From assembly GCA_018714105.1 (NCBI GenBank), contig DVNW01000003.1, forward strand, positions 1 through 64,000: a DNA stretch of 64,000 nucleotides, read 5' to 3'. Below the pieces are notes generated by a model. The model searched no databases. It saw nothing but the letters and a program-made list of their open reading frames with translations, and was not told where the DNA came from. This stretch comes from Candidatus Faecicola pullistercoris (lineage in GTDB: Bacteria > Bacillota > Clostridia > Christensenellales > CAG-917). Positions 14,544 through 29,148 of the stretch are shown piece by piece; the stretch's first letter is position 1, and every line of letters begins with the position of its first letter. The position numbers were made by a program, and so were the translations under genes.

Positions 14544-15650
14544 TCAGCCTATTATCCTTATCGGCAGTATCAGATACAGATAATCTTCTTCCTGCGAGGT
14601 GGGCACTATTATGCCGGGCGACGTGGACGTGTTGAATTTGAGTTTGACGAAATTGTCGGTTATGGCGCGCAGGCTGTCGGTAATGTATTTTACGTTGAAG
14701 CCTATCTGCAAATCCTTGCCGTTAAGGCTTATCGCTATATTTTCGTTGGTGGTGCTTTCGTCCGACTGCGCGGATATATTGAGGACGTTTTCCTTTATTT
14801 CGAGTTTTACTATGCTCTTCTTGTCGTTTTTGATAACAAGCGACGCTCTTTCAAGACTCCTTTCGAGAAGTTTTTTATCCACGGTCAGTTCTGTCGTGAA
14901 CTCGGCGGGTATTATCTTGTTGTAATTAATGTATTCGTTGTCTATCAGGCGGGTGACGATTTTTGTGTTTTTAATCTGTACCATAAGGTGATTTCTTTCG
15001 ATATTCACGCTTACTTCGTCCTCGTCGTCTTCAAGCAGTTTGCTGACTTCGTTGAGACTTCTTGCGGGTACAACTATTTTCTTTTCCTCGCCCGAGTATT
15101 CTATTACCTTTTTGCACATGGCAAGACGGTATCCGTCGGACGTTACCGCGGTCACGCAGTTTCTGGATAAATCGATACAGCAACCTTTAAGCACGGGCCT
15201 CGTATCTTCCTGTGCGGCGCAGAAAATGACTTTGTTTATCATATCCTTAAAGTCTTTCTGCTTGATTTTAAAAGACAGAAGTTCGTCCACGTTCTTGAAA
15301 GGAGGATATTCGTCCGCCGCCATAAGATTTATGTTTCCGTAACCGTCGGCAAACCTTATAATGAGCTTGTCTTCTCCGGTTGCGTCAAGCTCGATGGCTT
15401 CGTCTTTTACCTTATTTATATAATCTATTAAAAATTTACCGTTGCAAACGGCGCACCCTTCTACTTTTACCGATGCGTTTATCCTTTTTTCTATCGACAG
15501 TTCGAGGTCGGTAGCGGTTAAAATCAGATTATCCCCCGATGCTTCGAGTTTAATTCCTTCAAGAATAGGTATAGCCTTTTTAAGCGGCATTGCCTTTCCT
15601 ACTTTGGAAACGGCGTCGGCAAGTTCGATTCCGTCAACAAAAACTCTCAT
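14544..15650 (-). CDS. dnaN: DNA polymerase III beta subunit (sliding clamp)
   Basis: A 368-residue clamp that rings DNA and holds polymerase III and other partners. It shows three repeated clamp domains, including the VTAVTSDGYRLA segment in the middle domain and the C-terminal LPIRI tail that lines the partner-binding pocket. It is separated from dnaA by 200 bases and has its own strong promoter and terminator, so it can be expressed independently of dnaA. Confidence 0.97.
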   Translation of the reverse strand: MRVFVDGIELADAVSKVGKAMPLKKAIPILEGIKLEASGDNLILTATDLELSIEKRINASVKVEGCAVCNGKFLIDYINKVKDEAIELDATGEDKLIIRFADGYGNINLMAADEYPPFKNVDELLSFKIKQKDFKDMINKVIFCAAQEDTRPVLKGCCIDLSRNCVTAVTSDGYRLAMCKKVIEYSGEEKKIVVPARSLNEVSKLLEDDEDEVSVNIERNHLMVQIKNTKIVTRLIDNEYINYNKIIPAEFTTELTVDKKLLERSLERASLVIKNDKKSIVKLEIKENVLNISAQSDESTTNENIAISLNGKDLQIGFNVKYITDSLRAITDNFVKLKFNTSTSPGIIVPTSQEEDYLYLILPIRIIG

Positions 15651-15695
15651 GGCAGTCTCCTTATTTTTTTGTTTTTAATATAGTTTACAGTATTA

Positions 15696-15723
15696 ATTAT
15701 AATACTTTGTGTAGATATGTCAA
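15696..15723 (-). promoter_or_regulatory. Strong promoter of dnaN
   Basis: On the minus strand TTGACA (15718-15723) and TATAAT (15696-15701), both perfect consensus, are separated by 16 bases. Confidence 0.85.
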
Positions 15724-15844
15724 TAACCTTTTAAAACCTCAACATATAGTGTTTTTAAAAATCAATAAACAAAATATGTTGTGATTTTCATTGTTGAACG
15801 AATTGTAGATATCCTGTAGAAAATCCCCAAGTTTTCAACAAGGT

Positions 15845-15853
15845 TGTGGATTA
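15845..15853 (-). promoter_or_regulatory. Near-consensus DnaA box at the dnaA stop
   Basis: On the minus strand the site reads TAATCCACA, one mismatch from TTATCCACA, and overlaps the dnaA stop codon. It is the only such box I see in the dnaA-dnaN gap, so this gap is a weaker origin candidate than the 25.5-25.8 kb region. Confidence 0.4.
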
Positions 15854-17221
15854 ACGGCGGTAAAGCATGTCCTTTATGTCTTTAACGGCGTTCTGAACGT
15901 GAGAATTCGACTTTAACTGATCCTCTATTTTGTCGCGCGCGTTTATTATAGTGGTATGGTCTCTTCCGCCGAATATCTCGCCGATAGACTGTAAAGGAAT
16001 GTTGAGAAGGTCCCTTATCAGATAGATTGCTATCATCCTGGGTTCGACTACTTCTTTTGTCCTTCTTTTTCCGATAATATCGGCAGGAGTAACGTTGTAA
16101 AAACGCGCCGTTGTGTTAATTATGTCGTTGGCGTCGATGCTTTCTTTGTTTATTTGTATATAATCCCTCAGCGCTTCCTGTGCGGACTGAATGGAATCCA
16201 CGAGAGAACCCGTAAGAGAGGAATAAAATATAACCTTATTAAGAAGGCCCTCCATGTCGCGGACGTTGGACTGCACGTTTTTGGCTATAAAATAGGCGAC
16301 GTCGTCGGTGAGAAAGAAATTCTGCCCGGCGGCCTTGCGCTTTAATATTGCGATTCTGGTTTCAAGATCGGGCGGTTTTATTTCTTCGGTAAGGCCCCAT
16401 TCGAAACGCGTACGCAGCCTTTCTTCGAGCTGAGCGATTTCTTTAGGCGGACGGTCGGAAGTTATGATTATGTGCTTATCATTCTGATAAAGGTCGTTGA
16501 ATATATGGAAAATTGCTTCCTGCGAACCTGTGGAACGGGACCAGAACTGTATGTCGTCTATCATAAGTACGTCCACACAACGGTATTTTTCCTTGAATTC
16601 GGCCGTGGCGGATTTATTGACCTTGTTCTGATTTATTGAATTTATAAAATCCGACGTAAATTTCTCGGCGGTGGTGTACAGTATCTTTAAGTGAGGACTG
16701 TGCTCTTTTATGTAATTGCCTATGGCGTGCATCAGGTGCGTTTTTCCCAGTCCTACCCCGCCGTATAAAAACAGAGGATTGAAGTTTCCGCCGGGGTGTT
16801 CGGCAACGGTCTGCGCAGCCGCAACGGCAATTTCGTTTGACTTGCCTACAACAAAAGTGTCGAAAGTGTATTTTTTTGAAAAGGAAAAACCGTTGTCCTT
16901 GACGGGTTTTTTATTGCTTACGACAAGTTCGTTATTAAAGATATAATCTTTTTCCTTGAGGTATTTTTCCTTTTGATTTTCGGTAATTATTATTACGTCC
17001 GTGATAAGAGCGTTTACTTCGGTAACGGCTTCTTTTATCGTGTCGAGATATTTGTTTTCGATAGTCTTTTTAGAGCTTTGGGAATTAGCAAGCAGAATAA
17101 GCCTGTTCTGCGTAAAGCAGAGAGGCTCGAGTTTTTCTATCCAGACTTCGAAGCTTATGGCCTGCAGTCTGCCCGATAAAATGGAAAGGGCTTCGGCCCA
17201 TATATCGCTGACAACAATCAT
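15851..17221 (-). CDS. dnaA: Chromosomal replication initiator protein DnaA
   Basis: A 456-residue AAA+ initiator that binds DnaA boxes and opens the origin. The N-terminal interaction domain starts with SDIWAEAL; Walker A is GGVGLGKTHL, Walker B is MIDDIQFW, and the C-terminal DNA-binding signature is GRDHTTIINARDKI. The frame is open to 17263, but the ATG at 17221 matches the usual N-terminus and is chosen. A TATAAT at 17231-17236 would place the transcript start only about three bases before this ATG, so the mRNA may be nearly leaderless; no ribosome site is visible. It diverges from recF, unlike the common dnaA-dnaN-recF order. Confidence 0.97.
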   Translation of the reverse strand: MIVVSDIWAEALSILSGRLQAISFEVWIEKLEPLCFTQNRLILLANSQSSKKTIENKYLDTIKEAVTEVNALITDVIIITENQKEKYLKEKDYIFNNELVVSNKKPVKDNGFSFSKKYTFDTFVVGKSNEIAVAAAQTVAEHPGGNFNPLFLYGGVGLGKTHLMHAIGNYIKEHSPHLKILYTTAEKFTSDFINSINQNKVNKSATAEFKEKYRCVDVLMIDDIQFWSRSTGSQEAIFHIFNDLYQNDKHIIITSDRPPKEIAQLEERLRTRFEWGLTEEIKPPDLETRIAILKRKAAGQNFFLTDDVAYFIAKNVQSNVRDMEGLLNKVIFYSSLTGSLVDSIQSAQEALRDYIQINKESIDANDIINTTARFYNVTPADIIGKRRTKEVVEPRMIAIYLIRDLLNIPLQSIGEIFGGRDHTTIINARDKIEDQLKSNSHVQNAVKDIKDMLYRR

Positions 17222-18523: not shown

Positions 18524-19426
18524 TTATTTTGCGCCGATATTGGCTTTAAGAAACTCGACAAGCTCATAAATGCGCTGTAAGTCGTCCGCCGAAAAATAGT
18601 CAATCATTATACGGCCCTTTTCGTCGTTACCTTTAATTTTAACGCGTGTGCCGAATACCCTTTTGAGTTCGCCTACGAAGGATTTTAGCTCTCTGCTCTG
18701 AACCTCTTTTTCGCGCGGGCCCATGCCCATTTTTTTGCGGTTGAAATAGAGTTTTACTTCCATTTCGAGATCGCGTACGCTCTTTTTGTTGTCGCATGCG
18801 CGGTTGGCAAAGTCTATCTGAAGTTCGCGCTCGGTTACAGGCAGCAAGGCTCTCGCGTGGCCTGCCGACAGCCTGCCCGATCTTACCAGTTCGATGACTT
18901 CGGGCTGAAGCTGTAAAAGCCTTAACAGGTTTGTAATGGTAGGACGGCTTTTACCTATTTTGGAGGCGACTTCTTCCTGAGTCATTCCGTACGACTTTAT
19001 CAGCTCCTGCAAGCCGACCGCCGCTTCTATGGGGTTGAGGTCTTCCCTTTGAAGGTTTTCTATAAGCGCAACTTCCATTACCTGTTGCGTGGAAAGCTCT
19101 TTTACTATCGCGGGGACCTGATGCAGGCCCGCCAGAATGGCCGCTCTGAAACGTCTTTCGCCCGCTATAATCATATATCTTCCTTCGTTTTTGAGAAGGA
19201 TTAACGGTTGAAGAACGCCGTACGTCTTTACCGACTCGGCAAGCTCTTTCAGGGCCAGATCGTCAAACTGCTTTCGCGGCTGATTCGGATTGTTGTCGAT
19301 AAGCGAAACGGGTATTTCGGTAACCCCGGAATTTTGTTTTTTCTGTTCTTCCTTTAAAATTTCCTCTTCGTTGAAGTTGCTCAGCAGGGCGTCGAGGCCT
19401 CTGCCTAAACCTTTGCCTATTGCCAT
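18524..19426 (-). CDS. parB: Chromosome partitioning protein ParB (Spo0J)
   Basis: A 300-residue CTP-dependent DNA clamp that loads at parS sites and recruits condensin near the origin. The N-terminus GKGLGRGLDALL is the usual ParA-contact motif. The CTP-binding GERRFRA lies near residues 89-95, ENLQREDLNP follows, and a helix-turn-helix (MTQEEVASKIGKSRPTI) is central. It follows rsmG by 41 bases. No parA (soj) gene stands upstream or anywhere in the window, although parA normally precedes parB. Matching parS sites lie 6-7 kb to the right. Confidence 0.96.
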   Translation of the reverse strand: MAIGKGLGRGLDALLSNFNEEEILKEEQKKQNSGVTEIPVSLIDNNPNQPRKQFDDLALKELAESVKTYGVLQPLILLKNEGRYMIIAGERRFRAAILAGLHQVPAIVKELSTQQVMEVALIENLQREDLNPIEAAVGLQELIKSYGMTQEEVASKIGKSRPTITNLLRLLQLQPEVIELVRSGRLSAGHARALLPVTERELQIDFANRACDNKKSVRDLEMEVKLYFNRKKMGMGPREKEVQSRELKSFVGELKRVFGTRVKIKGNDEKGRIMIDYFSADDLQRIYELVEFLKANIGAK

Positions 19427-22527: not shown

Positions 22528-22959
22528 ATGGAAAAAATCAAATCTTTTACGATAGATCATCGCACGCATAAACCGGGACTGTATCTTTCGGGAGCGGCAA
22601 GAGGCATAAGCACTTTTGACCTAAGATTCAAGTTTCCCAATAAAGGAGAGTATCTCGATATCGCCGCCATGCACACGATCGAACACCTTTTTGCCACGGT
22701 CATACGCAACAGCGAGGTAAAAGACGACGTGGTATATTTCGGGCCGATGGGGTGCAGAACGGGATTTTACCTTCTTATGCACGATACCGACAGGGAAAAA
22801 GCGCTTCCCTTAATAATAAAAGCCTTCGAAGATTGTCTTTTGCTAACCGAAATACCGGGAAACAAAGAGGAAGAATGCGGAAATTACAAAGAGCATGACC
22901 TACAAAAAGCAAAGGAAGAAATCAAAAAGTATCTCCTGATATTAAAAGAAGGCCGCTGA
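22528..22959 (+). CDS. luxS: S-ribosylhomocysteine lyase LuxS
   Basis: A 143-residue metalloenzyme that splits S-ribosylhomocysteine to homocysteine and the AI-2 precursor. The metal site HTIEH and a third ligand Cys in EEECGN are present, as is the catalytic Cys in GMGCRTG. It is a little shorter than the usual 150-160. It is co-transcribed with mtnN, and its stop lies inside the loop of the terminator. Whether AI-2 serves as a signal here cannot be told; the methyl-cycle role is certain from the pair. Confidence 0.96.
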   Translation: MEKIKSFTIDHRTHKPGLYLSGAARGISTFDLRFKFPNKGEYLDIAAMHTIEHLFATVIRNSEVKDDVVYFGPMGCRTGFYLLMHDTDREKALPLIIKAFEDCLLLTEIPGNKEEECGNYKEHDLQKAKEEIKKYLLILKEGR

Positions 22960-24338: not shown

Positions 24339-25206
24339 AAATCCCCCAAAGCATTATATAAACAATTATACATAGGACAGCGGAAAAAATCAACACAAAT
24401 CAAAAAATACAAATGTTATGCCTTAAAAACCGCGGAAAATAAGCAAAATACAGAACCAAAAACCAAAATGTTCCACGGGAAACATTGTTTAAAAATTTTC
24501 GTAAATATTGACGAAATAACGGGAAAAGCAGATCGCAACATGACTGAAAATGCGGAAAAAAGGAATAATCGGAGCAAAAAACCGAAGGAAATACGTGCGG
24601 CAGATCGTCAGGAGCAATAAAAAGGCGCGTGCTTATCGGATTACCGTTTTTGCCCGCGCGGCAAGGCCGTTTTTCCGAAACATATGCCAAAACCTGTCCT
24701 GAAAGCGGTTTTTACGGCCGCGCAAGCGGGCCATATCGGGGAAAAGCCCTTTTCCATAAGAAACCGCTTGCATGCTTTTTCCGGCAATATGCGCCTTTAA
24801 AAGGGCCGCAATAAAGCAATTACATACGACTCAGACCGGGTTTGGTCGGTAAAATTCCGTTAAAATCATGTCGGAAAACAGACGGATATGCGATTAATAG
24901 AAAGCTGCAACTGCAATCCGCAATATCACGTCGCGGAATCGCGCGACCGGGAATGCCGCCGTAAAAGCCGCGGCGGGAAAACTCGAATTACTTCGGCAAT
25001 CGGAAAAAACAATCGCTGTTCCGCGAATGCGGGCGGTAGGCACTGCGAGACGAATAGCGGGAAAAACGGCCACCAAACCGCAAAAAAAAACCGCTAAATG
25101 CATCATTATAAAGTTATATTCACGCGAGAAATCGAAACAGTGCGGTTTTATGCAAAAACAAGCCAAATAAGCATAAATATGCACAAATTGTAAATAAATA
25201 TTCGCA
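24339..25206. other. Gene-poor left arm of the origin spacer
   Basis: No supported gene in about 870 bases. Open frames are short and lack ribosome sites. It contains one parS-like site at 24469-24484 and many short GGGAAAA or CGGAAAA words. G and C are about balanced on the plus strand. Confidence 0.6.
24469..24484. promoter_or_regulatory. parS-like site, outlying
   Basis: TGTTCCACGGGAAACA, two mismatches from the parS consensus TGTTTCACGTGAAACA. It is 1.2 kb left of the main parS pair. Confidence 0.55.
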
Positions 25207-25359
25207 TTACGACAGGTATCCGGTTTTAGACGAGCAGTTCGGGCAGAGCGCTTCACCGCCGACGCAGCTCGGGCAAATCAGGGCGCCGCACGTTGGGCAA
25301 ATACCGGCGTCCCCGTCTTTAATGGGCTTTCCGCATACGGAACATCTTATTTCGGCCAT
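25207..25359 (-). CDS. Small zinc-ribbon protein, four CxxC knuckles
   Basis: A 50-residue protein, too short for the usual ORF cut-off. Eight cysteines form four CxxC pairs at residues 6/9, 21/24, 29/32 and 39/42 (CSVC, CPTC, CPSC, CPNC), the pattern of a double zinc ribbon. A GGAGGTTTACT ribosome site precedes the ATG at 25359. It is the only supported gene inside the 3-kb origin spacer and lies about 170 bases from the first DnaA box. Zinc ribbons of this kind bind nucleic acid or act as partner-binding modules; its role is unknown. Confidence 0.82.
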   Translation of the reverse strand: MAEIRCSVCGKPIKDGDAGICPTCGALICPSCVGGEALCPNCSSKTGYLS

Positions 25360-25527
25360 AGTAAACCTCCGATAATATTATTGCCGATAAACGAAAAAAT
25401 AGACAAACAATCAAAAAATTACCAAAATCCCATAGAAGCCGCCGGTTTTTTATTGAAAAATTATATTAAAACTTGTAAAAACGCCGGTTTTCCGTAATGT
25501 AAAACAAAACCGGAAACGCGGCAAAAA

Positions 25528-25536
25528 TTATCCACA
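25528..25536 (+). promoter_or_regulatory. DnaA box (perfect)
   Basis: TTATCCACA on the plus strand. Confidence 0.8.
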
Positions 25537-25682
25537 AAAATCATGGTCGAAATTTAGGTGGTGAAAGAACGCGATTTTATAAAATCGGCCGTGAAACATT
25601 TAAATAAAACCAATAAAAAAGCGAAAAAAACATAGGAAAACAGCCTAAAATTCGAAAAATAAACGTAAAAACAGGCCGATAT

Positions 25683-25698
25683 GGTTTCCTGTGAAACA
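25683..25698. promoter_or_regulatory. Degenerate parS-like site
   Basis: GGTTTCCTGTGAAACA, three mismatches from the parS consensus, right next to a DnaA box. Confidence 0.4.
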
Positions 25699-25699
25699 A

Positions 25700-25708
25700 T
25701 GTGGATAA
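25700..25708 (-). promoter_or_regulatory. DnaA box (perfect)
   Basis: TGTGGATAA on the plus strand, which is TTATCCACA on the minus strand. Confidence 0.8.
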
Positions 25709-25714
25709 CTCAAA

Positions 25715-25730
25715 AGTTTCACGTGAAACC
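25715..25730. promoter_or_regulatory. parS: parS site
   Basis: AGTTTCACGTGAAACC contains the perfect 14-base core GTTTCACGTGAAAC. Confidence 0.9.
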
Positions 25731-25749
25731 TACAAACCATACTTTCTAT

Positions 25750-25765
25750 TGTTTCACGTGAAACA
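25750..25765. promoter_or_regulatory. parS: parS site, perfect consensus
   Basis: TGTTTCACGTGAAACA, identical to the 16-base palindromic consensus bound by ParB/Spo0J. Confidence 0.96.
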
Positions 25766-25785
25766 ATCGTCGCCGTGGAAGTAAT

Positions 25786-25794
25786 TGTGGACAA
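25786..25794 (-). promoter_or_regulatory. DnaA box (one mismatch)
   Basis: TTGTCCACA on the minus strand. With the box at 25700 it brackets the two parS sites. Confidence 0.6.
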
Positions 25795-25879
25795 CTGAAA
25801 CCGAGGAATTTTATGCTAAAATACGACAATAATTTTGAGTAAAAGCAGGATTCGGCTGCTATGACTTTAATCTTAACCT

Positions 25880-27323
25880 GATAAAACAAAGTTAAGCCCT
25901 GTCGGATTATCGGAAAATGCGTTTTGCGTGGACAAAAGCTTTTGTTGCTTTGATTTATCGCGCTTGATTCGTACGGATTGCTTTTTGTGCGATCTTCTCA
26001 CAAGACGGTCGATAATATATGTATCGGGCAATGTGCGACGGATTTTTAAGAAAGAGTTTTTACGAATTTGTGTTTATAGCGGCGCGGCAGGCAGACGCGT
26101 TTTGCGCATCAGTTTATTTATTGCGTGTGGCGGGTTTTGTGCGTGTTCGGGGCAAAACAAACCGATTACTGTTTAAACTGCGAAAATTTCTGCGGAAAGC
26201 GCGGGTGCGGTAGCGTTTCGGTTTCCTGTCCCTGGCAAGGGCATTTGTAATGCTGGCTGTGCGGTATGCTTAAAGTCGCAATTAATTTCTTTTGATATCA
26301 AATTTGAATTCAAATAACAGAGGGGCGGTTAATGCACCGTGCCGTAACGGTGTGCTGCCTGCGGTTTAATGTTTTGGTATGACTTGCGGCATTGTCGGTA
26401 AAGTAAGGCATTGATAATCGCAAACGAACTTAAGGTTTGTTCGGATGCGGCGAGCAATGCCTGAAAGCGCAGTGTAACGGGATAAAGGCCGCGCAGACAA
26501 TGTTCCCTGCACAAAATAGCGATAAACACATATCGACCGACCGTATGATCCTTTCGTGTGCGAGCGGCAAGAATGATTGTGAACCGAATATATAAACTAA
26601 GTAAAAAACGTGCGCAAACAGCAAAACGGAAAGCGCAATTCACGCCTGCGGCAGACTCAGACGTTGTAGCCGCATGCGTAAACAGGGTAAATAACCGTTT
26701 TCGGCAGCGTGAAAAGAAATATTGTAAAGCTGATATAATAACGGCGGCGCAAAAACGGGGTGCGTAATGGCGACTCGGAAAAGCCTGTCCGTAAAATCGC
26801 GAAATAAGTTTTTAAATTATAAAACGGCGTGAATCAGCATACTCGGAGAAGCGTATGCTTGAGGCTTTGCTCATAAACGATAATCAACGCCGCGAAAGTG
26901 GCGCTCACGCGCGGGCAGAGACAACCGGTATCCGACTGCGGATTTGAAATGGGAGCGAGGCGTGATATCGAAGGCTGCCGGACGGGGCCGAAAACGTACT
27001 CGCGGAGGCTTGGGCGGCGAAAAGGCTGACGGCGGGCGACCAAAGTATATAGCGTCCGTTGCGTTATTGGCGCAGGCGGAAGATTGTCGCAAACAGGCGG
27101 GCGAAAAAATCGGGATAATTAAAACAGAAGCTTTTGACGGTTGGCTATTCCTGCGGGCGGAAGATTTGCCGTGAGCGCGACGGACGGATTTCTGCCCGAT
27201 TGCGGAAAGGCTGTCGTTGTGCGTTTGCAAAAATAACGGCGGAAACGAGGCAGAGCGGCGATGCGAATAAAGTCGAAGAAGACTTGCGACCGAGCGTAAT
27301 AATGTCGAAAAACAGGTTTAAGG
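25880..27323. other. Gene-poor right arm of the origin spacer, G/T-rich
   Basis: No supported gene in about 1.4 kb. Frames of 60-80 codons exist but have no ribosome site or family likeness. The plus strand is clearly richer in G than C (37 to 17 in 26041-26160). An inverted repeat, GCATAC with GTATGC, occurs at about 26837-26859. The stretch around 26944-27174 has a long open frame and may be a decayed gene, but I cannot name it. Confidence 0.55.
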
Positions 27324-28586
27324 TTATATTTTACTATTTATGTCGGGAAAAGAGGGATTTTCGGACGAAAGCCTTTTGAGCATTAATATAAAAGCAATCA
27401 TTACCACGCAGACAGAAGAGGCTGCGAGCAAGCCGAGTTTTAAAGAGGCCTCCTCGGGTGAAGAGCCGAAGGCGGAAGGCAGAGCCGTGTCCGCCGTTTT
27501 ATCCGATATAAGCCCGACTATTGCGGGGCCGAGGCTGCAACCGAGGTCTCCTCCGAGCGACAGAAGTCCGAACATCGGAGTGCCGCCTTCGGGAATAGTA
27601 GAGGAAGACAGGCTGAAACTTGCGGGCCAGAGTATCCCGGCAAAGAACCCGCACAGGGCACATCCTGTCAGCGAAAGTACGGGGATGGGCGAAAAGACGG
27701 TCAGCATATATGCGGCAAAGCACCCGCCGCTGCTGACGAGCAAGGCTGTTTTCAGGTTGAGCTTGTCGGCTTTAAGACCAAAAAGAACGCGGGCAAGGCC
27801 CATGCAGAAGGCAAAACAGCAAGGTCCCAGAAGGTCACCCGTGGTTTTGGATATTCTTAGGCCGAGTTCGGCAAACAGCGAGCTCCACTGGGAAACGGCC
27901 TGCTCGGCGGCTCCCGCACATATCATCATTACGAAAAGTATCCAGAAAGCGCGCTTTGCCAGAAGGCGCTTTACCGGAAGTTTCTTTTCCTCGTCCACGA
28001 GCTTTGCAAAAGGAACTTTGCAGAACATAAAAATATTAACCGCCGGTATAACGGCCCATAACAGCGGAAGCCATCGCCACAGTCCGAGACCCGCAACATT
28101 AAAATACAGGGTAGACAGCAGAACGACGGCGACGTGTCCCCAGCAGTAAAACGAATGAAGAACGCTCATAGTAGCGCTTTTCTTTTCGCGCGGAAGAGCC
28201 TCTACTATGGGGCTGATTATGACTTCGATGAGGCCGCCGCCCGTAGCCAGAACGACGGTTGCCGTCAAAATAGCGGCATACGGGGGAACGACTAAGGGAA
28301 GAAGACCCAAAAACGCCAGCCCGATTACCGAGAGCGCATGTGCAATTATGCCCGATGCCCTGTAACCGATCCTGTCGACATATTTCGCGCCTATCAGATC
28401 TACGGCTATCTGTACGCCGAAGTTTACCGAAATTATCAGACTGATTTTTTCGAGCGAAATACCCAGATCCCGATTGAATACGACAAAAAGCAAGGGAGAC
28501 AAATTGTTGATTATGGCCTGGGTGACGTATCCGACGTAGCAGGAATACAAAGTATGCGTATAGGTGAATCTGCCGAATTTTTTCAT
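27324..28586 (-). CDS. MFS transporter, FHS/fucose-permease-like
   Basis: A 420-residue polytopic membrane protein with about 12 hydrophobic segments and the loop DRIGYRASGI after segment 2. The overall pattern (short loops, GGGLIEVIISPIVEAL in segment 4) resembles the FHS branch, which includes fucose and other sugar permeases. The substrate is not readable. It is on the minus strand to the right of the proposed origin, against the local bias, with no clear operon partner. Confidence 0.78.
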   Translation of the reverse strand: MKKFGRFTYTHTLYSCYVGYVTQAIINNLSPLLFVVFNRDLGISLEKISLIISVNFGVQIAVDLIGAKYVDRIGYRASGIIAHALSVIGLAFLGLLPLVVPPYAAILTATVVLATGGGLIEVIISPIVEALPREKKSATMSVLHSFYCWGHVAVVLLSTLYFNVAGLGLWRWLPLLWAVIPAVNIFMFCKVPFAKLVDEEKKLPVKRLLAKRAFWILFVMMICAGAAEQAVSQWSSLFAELGLRISKTTGDLLGPCCFAFCMGLARVLFGLKADKLNLKTALLVSSGGCFAAYMLTVFSPIPVLSLTGCALCGFFAGILWPASFSLSSSTIPEGGTPMFGLLSLGGDLGCSLGPAIVGLISDKTADTALPSAFGSSPEEASLKLGLLAASSVCVVMIAFILMLKRLSSENPSFPDINSKI

Positions 28587-29013: not shown

Positions 29014-29148
29014 ATGAAAAGGACTTACCAACCCAAAAAGAGACAGCGCAGCAAGGTTCACGGATTCAGAAAAAGAATGCAGACCAAAGCCGGCAGAAAC
29101 GTATTGGCAAGGCGTCGTCGTAAAGGCAGAAAACAGCTTTCGGCTTAA
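29014..29148 (+). CDS. rpmH: 50S ribosomal protein L34
   Basis: A 44-residue ribosomal protein beginning [12 protein letters not shown] and ending KGRKQLSA, unmistakable for L34. A GGAGGCAG ribosome site precedes the ATG and a perfect consensus promoter lies upstream. It heads the conserved rpmH-rnpA-yidD-yidC-khpB-mnmE-mnmG order. In most Bacillota dnaA lies just upstream on the other strand; here dnaA is about 12 kb away. Confidence 0.98.

Follow-up and report, generated by a model that had tools for sequence, protein, structure and literature searches.

A candidate chromosomal origin sharing a gene-free island with the parS pair, 8.5 kb from dnaA, in a Clostridia-like genome

A gene-free island at 25.5-25.8 kb is, in our judgement, likely to form the core of the chromosomal origin, or one of its two halves, and also the sole centromere at which ParB is loaded. 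It probably occupies the classical slot between rpmH and dnaA, into which genes were inserted on the dnaA side, rather than being an origin that moved elsewhere. This arrangement suggests that copying and partition of the chromosome start at one spot. The window analyzed here comprises the first 64 kb of a 102-kb contig, which belongs to a draft genome of 1.62 Mb that is 98% complete.

In Bacillota the origin normally adjoins dnaA, and parS sites are dispersed through the origin domain. The classical origin slot of this group is rnpA-rpmH-dnaA-dnaN (PMC7561715). In the window, gyrA, gyrB, dnaN (14544-15650, minus strand, TIGR00663) and dnaA (15851-17221, minus strand, TIGR00362, 493 bits) form a leftward block which is followed by a rightward recF. 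Beyond recF are found leftward genes for ParB, RsmG and a transporter, a rightward nucleosidase gene, a leftward phosphoesterase-like gene and then the island. To the right of the island, a leftward MFS transporter gene (27324-28586) precedes the rightward block rpmH-rnpA-yidC-jag-mnmE-mnmG, which begins at 29.0 kb. The first gene of this block, rpmH (29014-29148, plus strand), was read from the sequence; rnpA and yidC were supported by profile search, as were dnaA, dnaN and parB.

At 25.7 kb, the island lies between the rightward rpmH (29.0 kb) and the leftward dnaA (17.2 kb), the location expected of oriC, although this interval is hugely expanded here to approximately 12 kb and contains several genes. 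The first-pass annotation had described an origin placed about 8 kb from dnaA. The distance was measured as approximately 8.5 kb from the DnaA box at 25700 to the dnaA start (10.1 kb to the dnaN start), with several genes intervening, so that the island is not directly beside dnaA. Relocation of the origin is improbable, since the site is still placed between rpmH and dnaA in a slot that has grown. The surrounding interval (24339-27323) is gene-poor, its only exception being a 50-amino acid zinc-ribbon ORF just left of the island (25207-25359, minus strand) with a counterpart in G001, a genome from a different genus. A 143-amino acid ORF with no assigned function (22528-22959) is retained close to the island across several genera. 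A search for conserved RNA found no Rfam family in the window or in six related parS loci.

The island contains two perfect DnaA boxes with the sequence TTATCCACA, an outer left one at 25528-25536 (plus strand) and another at 25700-25708 (minus strand), the latter separated by only a few bases from the parS pair to its right. A near-perfect box, TTGTCCACA, with one mismatch is found right of the pair at 25786-25794 (minus strand). The two parS sites lie 35 bp apart. Site 1 (AGTTTCACGTGAAACC, 25715-25730) has a perfect 14-bp core at 25716-25729 and two end mismatches in the 16-mer, and site 2 (TGTTTCACGTGAAACA, 25750-25765) is an exact copy of the parS palindrome TGTTNCACGTGAAACA over all 16 positions. 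The coordinates of these two perfect and one near-perfect boxes and two parS sites, which had been reported to lie within 280 gene-free bases, were confirmed. The boxes were also said to bracket the parS pair; those at 25700 and 25786 do flank it, each within approximately 20 bp, and the one at 25528 lies further left. DnaA boxes are therefore found directly at parS, as in a Caulobacter-type centromere. A degenerate third parS (GGTTTCCTGTGAAACA, 25683-25698) carries three mismatches, and at the aligned place G001 has a true parS. By eye, the element AAATTTAGGTGGTGAAAGAA (25550-25569, minus strand), read in reverse, resembles the CTTTCACCCAAATTTTT repeat that accompanies parS in genera g4 and g9, and may be related to this family repeat.

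Allowing up to one mismatch, the only parS sequences in the whole 1.62-Mb genome are the two 14-mers of the island, and none of the shuffled sequences yielded four parS hits of that quality. A chromosomal ParB is encoded nearby (18524-19426, minus strand; TIGR00180, 190.6 bits, above cut-off), and the Noc model scores under its own cut-off for this protein. The DnaA boxes are more common. Only two perfect TTATCCACA copies occur in the window, and at least two anywhere were seen in 4 of 100 shuffles; the genome has 18 perfect boxes, including three two-box clusters tighter than that of the island. When boxes of the form TTWTNCACA with up to one mismatch were counted, and a cluster was defined as at least three boxes with an average spacing below 100 bp, the island held four with a mean spacing of 86 bp, and similar loose clusters of four boxes per 300 bp were found at several other places in the window.

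Perfect boxes were accordingly rejected as proof of an origin: boxes alone are weak evidence because the three other two-box clusters carry no skew switch, and for the same reason the coincidence of boxes and switch at 25.7 kb is not a general one. These three clusters of this genome (G000) are intergenic and consist of two perfect inverted boxes each (C1:63747-63768, C21:31696-31739 and C26:8015-8058). In this order, the first adjoins a spoIIGA-like gene, the second adjoins an N-acetylmuramoyl-alanine amidase-like gene, and the third is located between a phosphoglucomutase-like gene and a VanW-like one. It is possible that they are regulatory or titration sites for DnaA.

The strand composition of the contig switches at the island. 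The cumulative GC-skew minimum was found at 24475, and a two-level fit over the 102-kb contig placed the best change point at 25800, within the gene-poor interval. Relative to this point, the log-likelihood falls by 0.5 units at parS, 14.5 at dnaN and 18.3 at dnaA, so that the dnaA-dnaN gap, which had been named as the place where the switch should lie if the island were not the origin, fits far worse. In a bootstrap with 2-kb blocks, the 95% range of the change point was 21.8-30.6 kb and 0.6% of the replicates fell at or below 18 kb. The skew is approximately 0 in the gene-poor interval and rises to between +0.1 and +0.3 immediately right of 25.8 kb. As had been noted from the sequence, gene direction changes here along with G/C content, with the rpmH block to the right and gyrA-dnaA to the left, but the leftward MFS gene intervenes. 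The skew left of parS is weak (-0.024) compared to that on the right (+0.072), which matches the level of two other contigs; the left flank may therefore have been rearranged.

Further analysis covered stretches around parS in about 20 genomes and later in 20 more, from the same family and others of the order. These relatives are not independent of each other, and their gene calls were home-made, with a codon-trained caller used for the final non-coding and coding figures. Loci gathered through ParB from named genomes came mostly from distant families and were used for context only. In 14 family genomes, the non-coding GC skew was -0.041 to the left of dnaN, nearly the same (-0.038) from dnaN to parS, but +0.122 past parS. 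In a larger set, from which 1.5 kb on each side of parS was excluded, the middle had a skew of -0.010 and the far side +0.069; the far side exceeded the middle in 16 of 20 genomes (Wilcoxon p = 0.0017), and left and middle did not differ (p = 0.65). The mean profile changes sign close to parS and has climbed to +0.22 by the 250-bp mark beyond it. Moreover, the plus strand accounts for 40% of coding in the middle and 79% beyond parS. The switch of non-coding skew is located at the parS pair, and not at dnaN, in approximately 20 relatives. The raw cumulative minimum was discarded as a measure for the relatives in favor of non-coding skew; it is driven by gene orientation and so does not clearly tell parS from dnaN. 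Total skew has its vertex at dnaA or dnaN in some of them (G010 and G014, the former favoring dnaA) and is ambiguous in G008, G003 and G055.

The separation from dnaA is not peculiar to this genome; it proved, together with the parS pair, to be a family trait. A close pair is conserved in the family, with a spacing of 32-35 bp in most members, and is found between the block of dnaA, dnaN, recF, parB and rsmG and a block containing either gyrBA or the rpmH-side genes. The distance between dnaA and parS ranges from 4 to 14 kb, and the orientations of dnaA and dnaN are scrambled. In G032, G105 and G112, which represent three further families of the order, the vertex of the skew lies at dnaA or close to it; the condition seen in this genome's family therefore looks derived. 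The same arrangement was nevertheless seen in G102 (L202, L203), a member of yet another family, where six parS sites lie between a relative of ORF 22528-22959 and rnpA and coincide with the skew minimum. A separate observation concerns the parS loci of genera g4 and g9 (L178, L182 and L175), which contain the dyad CCACTAAACAGTGG, also as its reverse complement, 30 or 41 bp from parS (one helical turn apart) and followed by CTTTCACCCAAATTTTT-like repeats. Copies of this putative binding site for a factor also occur elsewhere in g4 and g9 genomes, and none in the present genome. In G047, three copies of the dyad follow one another with a period of exactly 182 bp where a contig starts (C63:34-411), and several more in relatives are found close to the ends of contigs, which suggests a repeat or mobile element.

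A very improbable explanation is that the boxes arose by chance beside an ordinary parS pair and have no role, in which case the origin could lie anywhere in the 16-30 kb zone. Loose groups of four boxes per 300 bp do recur in the window, and in most g4 and g8 relatives good boxes at parS are scarce or lacking. The comparison with G001 nevertheless argues for a role. Its island aligns with the present one and contains three DnaA boxes at matching places, all changed together to TTATCAACA. Two of these align with the boxes at 25528 and 25700, and the third, 15 bp right of the second parS of G001, is the counterpart of the box at 25786. G001 has 21 copies of TTATCAACA in about 1 Mb, and the three within 261 bp at the island are the only such tight cluster. 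The DnaA recognition helix differs as well, with GRDHTTI in the present genome and GRDHATV in G001. The change from DHTT to DHAT replaces Thr with Ala at a base-contacting position equivalent to residue 435 of E. coli DnaA, a likely specificity residue for box recognition (PMC5043019). As a single case, this matched change of boxes and helix is a correlation only.

An unlikely but more serious alternative is a bipartite origin, in which DNA unwinds at the dnaA-dnaN gap, the oriC2 location known from B. subtilis and C. difficile, and the island is the first half with its DnaA boxes (an oriC1), brought in by looping from approximately 10 kb away. The gap (15651-15850) is AT-rich and contains four weak DnaA-like boxes. 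Its predicted duplex is among the top 0.1-0.2% most easily melted in the window, compared to about the top 2% for the island. Many relatives have kept boxes approximately 160 and 210 bp upstream of dnaN, together with a promoter, even those in which dnaN is apart from dnaA. Across the family, 36 DnaA boxes were found upstream of dnaN where 2.3 were expected, and 19 around parS against 4.2 expected, the latter mostly from a few genomes. There is also a precedent in C. difficile, where melting takes place in the dnaA-dnaN region and both origin halves are required (PMC7561715). However, skew switches at parS and not at dnaN, and no precedent for halves 10 kb apart was found in the literature surveyed. 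The gap also contains a strong TTGACA-N17-TATAAT promoter for dnaN, and its boxes may instead regulate that gene. A search for a DnaA-trio at the island and upstream of dnaN gave nothing above chance, although weak variants could be missed, and this counts against either site. The proposal of the first-pass annotation that the origin is fused with parS is thus partly supported: it is favored by skew, here and in relatives, and is held back by the missing DnaA-trio at the island and the easier melting of the dnaA-dnaN gap.

Still less probable is a DnaA-responsive centromere, where DnaA triggers segregation at parS and replication starts elsewhere nearby. In Caulobacter, parS is bound by DnaA, which is able to initiate partitioning even when no replication takes place (PMC6399470). 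Boxes in the island lie no more than approximately 20 bp from the parS pair, and the occurrence of tight two-box clusters where skew does not switch suggests that DnaA boxes have other uses in this genome. Nonetheless, skew switches at the island here, and across the family it does so at the parS pair. Moreover, the moving partner in Caulobacter is ParA, and this ATPase was not found in the present genome, either beside parB or elsewhere; the best match was MinD-like (E = 1.7e-6, 31% identity). ParA (Soj) is apparently missing in genera g3 and g8 as well, although ParB and parS are retained there, and parA is kept in genera g4, g5, g6, g9 and g10, usually beside parB. SMC is present in the genome as a 1280-amino acid frame. 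In the absence of ParA, ParB-SMC is the likely segregation route.

If the island is indeed the origin or its first half together with the centromere, DnaA bound at the boxes would assist strand opening within or close to the AT-rich, gene-poor interval. The parS pair would serve as the loading site for ParB dimers, which would spread as sliding clamps over the same DNA, and ParB would then load SMC, which would pull the two fresh origins apart. The unwinding site could also be the dnaA-dnaN gap, acting as the second half of a bipartite origin. The distance of 8.5 kb to dnaA would have been created as recF, parB, rsmG, the transporter gene and others came to lie on the dnaA side.

A stronger version can be put forward only tentatively. 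Here, the DnaA boxes and the phased parS pair would form one nucleoprotein site, a composite of origin and centromere that couples replication initiation to segregation in cis without ParA. ParB clamps loaded between the boxes would then have to slide through the zone of DnaA binding and unwinding, and a whole family of uncultured Clostridia-like bacteria would have kept the merged site while dnaA drifted off. The family appears to keep its origin with the parS pair as dnaA, dnaN, recF and parB reshuffle kilobases away; if so, the element that stays tied to the origin over evolution is not the initiator gene but the centromere. The site would also be a compact natural case of ParB clamps and DnaA sharing a few hundred bases in a cell without ParA. 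On a practical level, tools that use dnaA as the landmark for locating origins may point to the wrong place in these genomes.

Several known systems share features with the island. The rnpA-rpmH-oriC1-dnaA-oriC2-dnaN region of B. subtilis and C. difficile is similar in its DnaA, TTATCCACA boxes, divergent rpmH/dnaA slot and skew switch. Unlike in those origins, approximately 12 kb and several genes separate rpmH from dnaA here, parS lies inside this interval and a DnaA-trio was not found. Caulobacter crescentus also has DnaA boxes directly at paired parS sites near the origin, whereas here the strand composition switches at the parS sites themselves, ParA is lacking and the genome is Bacillota-like. 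Streptococcus pneumoniae, which lacks ParA, likewise has ParB, parS and SMC, but its parS sites are not known to lie between origin DnaA boxes. In chromosome II of Vibrio cholerae (rctA, parS2-B), a centromere site is found among initiator sites and ParB2 spreads into the origin (PMC3688505); the initiator there is RctB with its own sites, in contrast to DnaA and the main chromosome here. In Pseudomonas aeruginosa (PMC4368675) and Thermus (PMC4409726), parS or the par genes lie kilobases from oriC, and ParA of B. subtilis exerts its regulation without requiring parS close to oriC (PMC7614844).
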